Part shown: piece by piece, positions 59,299 through 60,600 of the stretch
Position numbering within the stretch: the first letter of the stretch is position 1
How the letters are laid out: each line of letters starts with the position of its first letter
Assembly: GCF_010731575.1 (NCBI RefSeq)
Contig: NZ_AP022617.1
Coordinates: 5,456,001-5,520,000, forward strand
Origin: Mycolicibacterium monacense
GTDB lineage: Bacteria; Actinomycetota; Actinomycetes; Mycobacteriales; Mycobacteriaceae
Direction: 5' to 3'
DNA length: 64,000 nucleotides
The notes under the pieces: model-generated
Databases searched by the model: none
Seen by the model: the letters and a program-made list of their open reading frames with translations, nothing else
What the model was told of the DNA's origin: nothing
Made by a program: the position numbers and the translations under genes

Positions 59299-60600
59299 AT
59301 GCAGAGACGTAATCGTCGCGCTGGTGTCGAAGATCGTTGGCGGCGGGCAGATGGCAGCCCAACGGCGCGGGCCAACACGGGGCGTCGTTGGCTGGCCCGC
59401 TACGTCGACGACCAGGGGCAAGAAAACACCAGGTCCTTCGATCGCAAAGTGGATGCCCAAGCCTGGCTCGATGAGATCACTGCCATGCAGGTGACCGGCG
59501 CCTACGTCGCTCCGAAGGCGGGCCGTGTGAGCGTCGGCGAACTGTATGCGAAATGGGTCGGAACGCAGAGCCACCTCAAGAAGACCACCGCGTCGACTCG
59601 GAGGTACACCTGGCCGGTGTACGTCGAGCCTCGTTGGTCTGCGGTGGCTGTCGCCGACGTGCAGACGACGGACGTGCGTGCCTGGGTCCAGTCAATGACG
59701 TCCTCGGGTGCTGGTGCCGCCACAGTTGAGAATGCCGTCGGCATCTTGCGTCAGATTCTGGAGATGGCAGTCGAGGACCGACGGATCGCGCGCAATCCGT
59801 GCACGGGGATCAAGCTTCCCCGCCGCAAGCGGCGACCACGCGGCTACCTGACGCACCGCCAGGTGGAGCAGCTCGCTGTTGAAGTCGGGACGGATGCGAC
59901 GGTCGTGCGCTTCTTGGCCTACACCGGTCTGCGCTGGGGAGAAATGGCGGCGCTGCGCGTCGGTGACGCGAAGATGCTTCGACGTCGCGTCCACGTGCGG
60001 GAATCCGTGACGGAGGTCGAAGGGCAACTGGAGTGGTCGTCACCCAAGTCCTACGAGCAGCGGATGGTGCCTTTCCCCGCGTTTCTTGCTGACGAACTGG
60101 CCGTCCTGATGATTGGGAAGAAGCCCGATGACCTCATCTTCGCCGCGCCCGAAGGCGGAGTTCTGAGAGTGTCGAACTGGCGCCGCCGAGTCTTCAACAA
60201 AGCGGTCAAGCGGCTCCTCGAGAAGGATGCGACCTTCCCAGTCGTAACTCCGCACGATCTCCGTCACACCGCCGCATCCCTGGCCATCAGTGCCGGCGCC
60301 AATGTCAAAGCCGTGCAGACCATGCTGGGGCACGCCTCGGCGGTGCTGACCCTGGACACTTACGCCGACCTGTTCCCGGACGATCTGGAGATGGTTTCCG
60401 CGGCTTTGGACGATGCGCGAACCAAGTCCCTGAAAGCTGCTGCGGACCAACTGCGGACTGGAACGAAAGAAGGCCCCGAACTGGAGAACCAGTCAGGGCC
60501 TTCTACCTGCGATCACGCGAGTCGGGGTGGCGGGATTCGAACCCACGACCTCTTCGTCCCGAACGAAGCGCGCTACCAAGCTGCGCCACACCCCGCGTGA
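59299..60600 (+). CDS. int: tyrosine integrase overlapping tRNA-Pro
   Basis: A 433-residue site-specific recombinase from ATG 59299, preceded by a GGAGGAGGGG site. An N-terminal AP2-like arm domain (RWLARYVDDQGQENTRSFDR) and SAM-like core-binding region precede the catalytic domain: Arg212 in TGLRWGEM, HDLRHTAA (His319, Arg322), GHAS and Tyr355 in TLDTYADLF. The last 78 residues form a tail that is encoded through the terminator hairpin, the attR repeat and the antisense of tRNA-Pro (GGIRTHDLFVPNEARYQ). Only residues up to Asn422 come from the element. In the excised circle the frame would end seven codons later. Confidence 0.93.
   Translation: MQRRNRRAGVEDRWRRADGSPTARANTGRRWLARYVDDQGQENTRSFDRKVDAQAWLDEITAMQVTGAYVAPKAGRVSVGELYAKWVGTQSHLKKTTASTRRYTWPVYVEPRWSAVAVADVQTTDVRAWVQSMTSSGAGAATVENAVGILRQILEMAVEDRRIARNPCTGIKLPRRKRRPRGYLTHRQVEQLAVEVGTDATVVRFLAYTGLRWGEMAALRVGDAKMLRRRVHVRESVTEVEGQLEWSSPKSYEQRMVPFPAFLADELAVLMIGKKPDDLIFAAPEGGVLRVSNWRRRVFNKAVKRLLEKDATFPVVTPHDLRHTAASLAISAGANVKAVQTMLGHASAVLTLDTYADLFPDDLEMVSAALDDARTKSLKAAADQLRTGTKEGPELENQSGPSTCDHASRGGGIRTHDLFVPNEARYQAAPHPA
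60469..60503 (-). terminator. hairpin downstream of tRNA-Pro inside int
   Basis: GAAGGCCC (60469-60476) pairs with GGGCCTTC (60496-60503), with an inner CTGG/CCAG stem. On the minus strand it lies 18 bp past the tRNA 3' end and is followed by TTTCGTTCC, like a rho-independent terminator. It is brought by the element and stands in for the native hairpin now at 36353-36385. Confidence 0.7.
60518..60564. repeat. attR: 47-bp direct repeat within tRNA-Pro
   Basis: Identical to 36397-36443. Identity stops at 60564, the first base of the 5' strand of the anticodon stem, so the strand exchange region lies in the T arm to anticodon loop part of the tRNA. Confidence 0.93.
60522..60595 (-). tRNA. tRNA-Pro (anticodon CGG)
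   Basis: On the minus strand the sequence folds as a cloverleaf: acceptor stem CGGGGTG with CACCCCG, D arm with GCGC and AGCTTGGTA, anticodon stem CTTCG/CGAAG around loop TTCGGGA (anticodon CGG, 60559-60561), and T arm GTGGG-TTCGAAT-CCCGC. It has 74 bases and no encoded CCA. Its 3' half comes from the integrated element, the 5' half from the chromosome, and the product sequence is unchanged. Confidence 0.96.

Follow-up and report, generated by a model that had tools for sequence, protein, structure and literature searches.

An integrase frame that runs through its attachment site and a tRNA-Pro gene, with two predicted C-terminal ends, in an integrative element of Mycolicibacterium monacense

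The window analysed here is a stretch of 64,000 nucleotides from a 6.04-Mb single-contig genome of Mycolicibacterium monacense (NZ_AP022617.1, positions 5,456,001 to 5,520,000). It contains an integrase-bearing segment flanked on one side by a tRNA gene and on the other by a displaced 3' fragment of that gene, the anatomy of a tRNA-targeted integrative element. The relevant features, in window coordinates, are as follows.

36351..36388, minus strand: hairpin adjoining attL (z -5.4)
36397..36443, no strand assigned: attL core, 47 bp identical to attR
36444..36467, plus strand: left end of the element, which as part of attP would give the integrase the ending HDTSEFD-stop
58935..59213, minus strand: excisionase-like HTH_17 protein adjoining the integrase gene (phrog_66, E 4.3e-9)
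59299..60600, plus strand: tyrosine integrase of 433 aa in its integrated (attR) form, matching PF00589 over 183-358 (E 1.7e-21)
60463..60597, plus strand: C-terminal tail of the integrase, codons 389-433, predicted disordered and barely or not alignable outside the tail-bearing group
60468..60504, minus strand: hairpin with a T-rich run after it on the minus strand; also integrase codons 390-402
60518..60564, no strand assigned: attR core, the same 47 bp as in attL, covering the tRNA from its 3' end to the anticodon loop
60521..60595, minus strand: tRNA-Pro(CGG), restored by the core of the element (Rfam tRNA, 65.2 bits)

Tyrosine integrases are recognized by the catalytic motif R..K..HxxR..H..Y. 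R212, K250, R322, H345 and Y355 are invariant in the integrase alignment and H319 is nearly so, which places the protein in this class. Its frame is open from 59254 on the plus strand. The ATG at 59299, which matches the start of close relatives in the alignment, yields 433 residues up to the TGA at 60598-60600; counted from an upstream TTG, the length would become 448 aa for the integrated form and 444 aa for the excised one. Within the tail, codons 390-402 are the hairpin, codons 408-422 the attR core and codons 423-433 the antisense of the 5' part of tRNA-Pro(CGG), and the integrated form thus has the tRNA-encoded C-terminus ...EARYQAAPHPA. This agrees with the initial annotation, which had the frame crossing a hairpin, the attR repeat and the tRNA in antisense orientation before stopping 3 bp past the latter: the coordinates are right, no in-frame stop precedes 60598, and the tRNA indeed lies on the opposite strand.

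The direct repeat that flanks the element is 53 bp long with 1 mismatch (36391-36443 and 60512-60564), the 47 identical base pairs being those of the two cores, and the repeat and the tRNA are real att features. For actinobacterial tyrosine integrases that target tRNA genes, a passage in PMC10865867 gives a common core of 30-45 bp that includes the 3' half of the tRNA. When sequences flanking the element were looked for at 20 other loci as an empty-site check, the right flank found matches at nine of them (78-83 % identity, two of the nine being one place), and the left flank had no match at these 20 loci, its best matches in 60 genomes lying elsewhere. The right flank carries a gene for an L-cysteine desulfhydrase of the Cds1 type (60860-61966, NF052478), and this region stands beside tRNA-Pro in other genomes too. 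C-terminal integrase-like fragments precede some attL cores (three examples were noted) and are probably the remains of earlier insertions, which makes the region 3' of tRNA-Pro look like a hotspot for insertion. Among the loci examined, over about 1.5 kb upstream, no tandem junction joining a complete tail-bearing integrase gene to a left end was found.

The hairpin within the tail (60468-60504) has a folding energy of -29.9 kcal/mol, with z -5.5 on the minus strand and -4.0 on the plus strand, and surpasses 200 of 200 shuffled sequences on both. On the minus strand it is followed by TTCTTTCGTT. It is the sole terminator-like site between 59000 and 61000; since shuffled sequences averaged 1.3 such sites, the scan alone proves nothing. 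Similar hairpins adjoin tRNA-Pro at several other sites. The hairpin is best read as a putative terminator of tRNA-Pro borne by the element, and its counterpart next to attL is presumably the displaced terminator of the host gene. The simplest reading would be that the element imports its own tRNA 3' end together with a terminator, those of the host being moved to attL. One tRNA-Pro site that has no full integrase gene carries a terminator region very similar to the hairpin on the integrase side, and may be what is left of an earlier element.

Several other genes lie within the element. Close to the left end, a gene resembling serine/threonine kinases (37370-38476) matches many PD-T4-6 defence kinase models and also mad6, which may merely reflect its kinase domain. 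The 680-aa protein encoded at 39497-41539 has no Pfam, NCBIfam or PADLOC match and one weak match to a PHROG of unknown function. An IS21-type transposase pair (IstA-like and IstB) occupies 53631-56017. Beside the excisionase-like gene, 57223-58800 encodes a 525-aa protein for which Pfam, PHROGs, PADLOC and NCBIfam gave no match; judging from its position, it is possibly a replication protein.

Excision would join 60564 to 36444. Performing this join in silico reproduces the arithmetic of the initial annotation: after Asn422 (...VPN) the frame reads HDTSEFD and stops, giving 429 instead of 433 residues. By sequence alone, attP therefore lies within the element's own integrase gene, the frame crossing the core and reaching a different C-terminus at either junction. 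The layout of attP is seen directly in a relative, the circular 15,865-bp pDJL3 of Rhodococcus qingshengii (NZ_CP025962.1), whose integrase is 58.5 % identical. There the order is integrase gene, hairpin-like stretch, tRNA-Pro core and left end, and the last does not complete the tRNA. The integrase gene of pDJL3 ends with a TAA at 1924-1926, ahead of the core, so that it has no alternative tail. This "plasmid" also carries phage-like genes (terminase, tape measure), and it looks like an excised integrative element rather than a plasmid. For the element itself, neither its attP junction pattern nor the integrase peptide patterns had any match in viral contigs. In a phage collection, the best integrase relatives among the matches listed share 42 % identity across 79 % of the query, and two records were counted in the 60-80 % identity band.

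All the relatives retrieved at 72 % identity to the integrase or above belong to Mycobacterium, Mycolicibacterium, Mycolicibacter or Mycobacteroides, and weaker ones extend to Nocardia, Gordonia, Williamsia and others. The 53 distinct integrases gathered include 24 full-length ones that share at least 73 % identity across codons 1-388. The tail is present in 17 of the 24, and each of the 17 is exactly 433 codons long, the sequences having been selected for the presence of a tail and not for its length; their gene bodies are 69-100 % identical to that of the window at the nucleotide level. The other seven end after 389 aa, with a stop at codon 390. In six of them a tRNA is predicted 52-53 bp past the stop (none is predicted for the seventh). 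Unlike the constant tail of the 17, the distance from hairpin to core takes two values in this clade, 19 and 20 nt, and is more variable at other tRNA-Pro sites. More distant integrases mostly stop before the tRNA (25 of 27). One exception runs past tRNA-Pro, probably because of a frameshift, and the other has no tRNA nearby; one distant integrase ends early, at 349 aa. Among fragments, one reads through a tRNA-Ala and another ends 9 bp inside one. Forty further relatives were picked, non-randomly, from the hit table: in 30 of them the integrase runs towards a tRNA or tmRNA gene that lies within 300 bp of its stop, and 29 of the 30 stop 6-161 bp ahead of the RNA gene while the last overlaps a tRNA-Thr by 25 bp. 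An integrase facing the tRNA is a feature shared with actinobacterial tRNA-targeting relatives, but in those examined it usually stops ahead of the tRNA.

The integrase tree comprises 37 sequences (18 with the tail, the seven without it and 12 of the 27 distant ones). In it the sequences without a tail form a clade (support 1.0) that falls within the tail-bearing lineages (0.993), some inner supports being very low. Because this clade is nested and the distant integrases have no tail, the simplest history is a single gain and a single loss of the tail.

Left ends were located for the genomes of all 17 tail-bearing integrases. The pairing of left end and integrase was by genome, and the two lie on the same contig in 12 cases and on another contig in five. 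One of these five genomes offers two candidate left ends; the one giving HDTREFD-stop was used, and the other has no stop for at least 26 codons. On this basis the predicted attP form has 429 aa in 15 of the 17, the remaining two having 431 and 435; the 15 share the position of the stop codon, and 16 of the 17 forms end in D or E. Left ends from genomes without a full tail-bearing integrase in hand were not counted: four fit the 429 pattern, one gives HDT-stop and two have no stop at that codon. Compared pairwise, the left ends of the 17 share 84 % identity in their first 21 nt, falling to 63 % and 45 % further out, and the consensus of tail-bearing elements agrees with that of the no-tail elements at 17 of 21 positions, though in the latter the integrase has already ended. 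Such a pattern would be as expected of a recombination site. The window and the genome of an integrase 97.7 % identical to its own have a common left end (102 bp at 100 %), which supports 36444 as the cognate end of the element. Two other integrases, 97.7 and 98.2 % identical, are nevertheless accompanied by a different left end, which indicates that ends are exchanged.

The codons of the tail were examined for signs of selection as protein. Parsimony changes per site at codon positions 1, 2 and 3 (n=17; two tail-bearing sequences, one 5'-truncated and one a fragment, were left out) amount to 0.56, 0.26 and 2.20 for codons 81-360 (156, 74 and 617 raw changes), 0.93, 0.25 and 1.89 for codons 361-388, and 1.21, 1.16 and 1.53 for codons 389-407 (23, 22 and 29 raw changes). 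The gene body in relatives is accordingly under strong purifying selection, and the third-position bias nearly vanishes at codon 389, where the fold ends: AlphaFold2 places the last helix at 360-387 and assigns a pLDDT below 50 to residues 388-433, with blocks at 30-37 over residues 391-433, predicting disorder. The pLDDT is also below 50 at 347-359, which includes the catalytic Tyr355, so that the model is poor outside the tail as well. Over codons 388-407, 2.84 stop-creating changes would be expected if the sequence were unconstrained and none is observed, a difference that is not significant (P 0.059). Over codons 388-433 of the 17 relatives the integrase frame is open in all, the +1 frame in 15 and the +2 frame in nine; alternative frames being so often open, the open integrase frame is in itself unremarkable. 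At the attP end (codons 423-430) there are 8, 11 and 15 changes by position, with codons 428-429 varying mainly at the third position and codon 427 at the second, and the signs of protein-level selection there are ambiguous. Little codon-position bias and an openness that may be due to chance thus do not support selection on the tail as protein. The constant length, the shared attP stop, the D/E ends and the pattern at codons 428-429 could reflect a weak protein-level constraint, but shared descent and constraint on the DNA would account for them as well. For this reason the constant length and the mostly acidic attP end carry little weight as evidence.

Arrangements of this kind are already known from several precedents. 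According to passages in PMC4701971, attP of the Myxococcus phage Mx8 lies inside the integrase gene (IntP) and integration replaces the 3' end, exchanging 112 residues for 13 and leaving the enzyme less active; a passage in PMC6070905 speaks of changed specificity after integration, and the integrases of Mx8 and SSV are named as extending across attP in a passage of PMC4383910. The present element resembles Mx8 in its layout. It differs in that 7 and 11 residues alternate at the end of an antisense-tRNA tail that is predicted to be disordered and for which nothing found suggests an effect, against the larger exchange and the effect described in those passages. In streptococcal ICEs inserted at rumA, described in passages of PMC4701971, integration likewise swaps 3' ends and alters the C-terminus of the integrase, but the enzyme is a serine recombinase and the target a protein gene, whereas here a tyrosine integrase uses a tRNA. 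The MabN and MabB prophages of M. abscessus have attP in a coding frame and change the C-terminus of their repressor upon integration, as described in a passage of PMC9934374. In the integration-dependent immunity of mycobacteriophages described there, the altered protein is the repressor, which loses an ssrA-like tag; here the altered protein is the integrase. The element does not belong to that class, since its attP lies in the integrase gene. The integrase end, judged by eye, has to our knowledge no canonical ssrA-like tag. Among the open-licence titles that the literature searches listed, none dealt with this tRNA-Pro element or group of integrases.

Taken together, the data are best explained by an integrative element of tRNA-Pro(CGG) whose integrase gene lost its stop codon and acquired a tail as a neutral by-product, to which we give a probability of roughly 0.8. 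The element would have inserted, by means of its own tyrosine integrase, into the half of the tRNA gene formed by the anticodon loop and the T arm, its attP carrying the 3' part of the tRNA and a tRNA terminator beside the integrase gene. An ancestral integrase gene probably lost its stop near the T-run of the terminator, at codon 390, as suggested by the nested clade that stops there. With the stop lost, the frame would have run on through terminator, core and the DNA that follows: the antisense of the remainder of the tRNA when the element is integrated (433 aa), or its left end when it is excised (429 aa), and each form would be expressed in its own state. The tail, lying beyond the folded protein, is most likely a neutral and tolerated extension whose letters would be conserved as tRNA, terminator and core-adjoining DNA.

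The initial annotation also held that the recombinase has different tails in the two states. As a prediction this stands, and it recurs in relatives; that the difference matters is opposed by the scant codon bias, the predicted disorder and the absence or loss of the tail in relatives. A short acidic attP form and a long ...APHPA attR form might differ in stability or activity, favouring integration when the element is excised and limiting excision when it is integrated. The near-uniform 429-residue attP forms with their D or E endings, the 17 integrated forms of 433 aa and the precedent of Mx8 would fit such sensing of the integration state. We nevertheless consider it very improbable, given also that a natural clade lacks the whole tail, that some left ends give other tails or none at that codon, and that far fewer residues change than in Mx8. 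Overall, the sequence evidence speaks against a difference in activity between the two forms. The related proposal that two ends are kept on purpose, an acidic-ended excised form of near-fixed length and a tRNA-encoded integrated one, seems very unlikely; if true, recombination itself would reset the stability or activity of the integrase, and the host tRNA sequence would serve as the "integrated" tag.

Nor does the overlap itself readily offer a role. Transcription of the tRNA and its terminator could interfere with integrase expression in the integrated state, and the facing orientation, common to 30 of the 40 further relatives, speaks for this. But if the hairpin does terminate the tRNA transcript, the antisense RNA would span just the last ~45 integrase codons; and since the same geometry exists in relatives without overlapping reading frames, such regulation, which we regard as very doubtful, explains nothing special here. 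Least probable of all is that the integrase truly ends earlier, or that the element has decayed, and that the tail is never translated. The IS21-type pair inside the element and the failure to find its circular form in viral contigs speak for this reading, to which the frame uninterrupted up to 60598, the strong purifying selection on the gene body in relatives and an anatomy alike in 17 distinct integrases are opposed. The arrangement is a genuine case of a known kind, and its two predicted tails are most likely without functional effect.

It appears from this case that losing the stop codon next to an attachment site in a tRNA gene is enough to create an integrase end that depends on the integration state, and that a lineage can retain such an end with no visible selection on the protein. 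A reading frame that overlaps an att site therefore need not be a switch. With no tail, 429 and 433 residues, nature provides a series in which the question can be tested.
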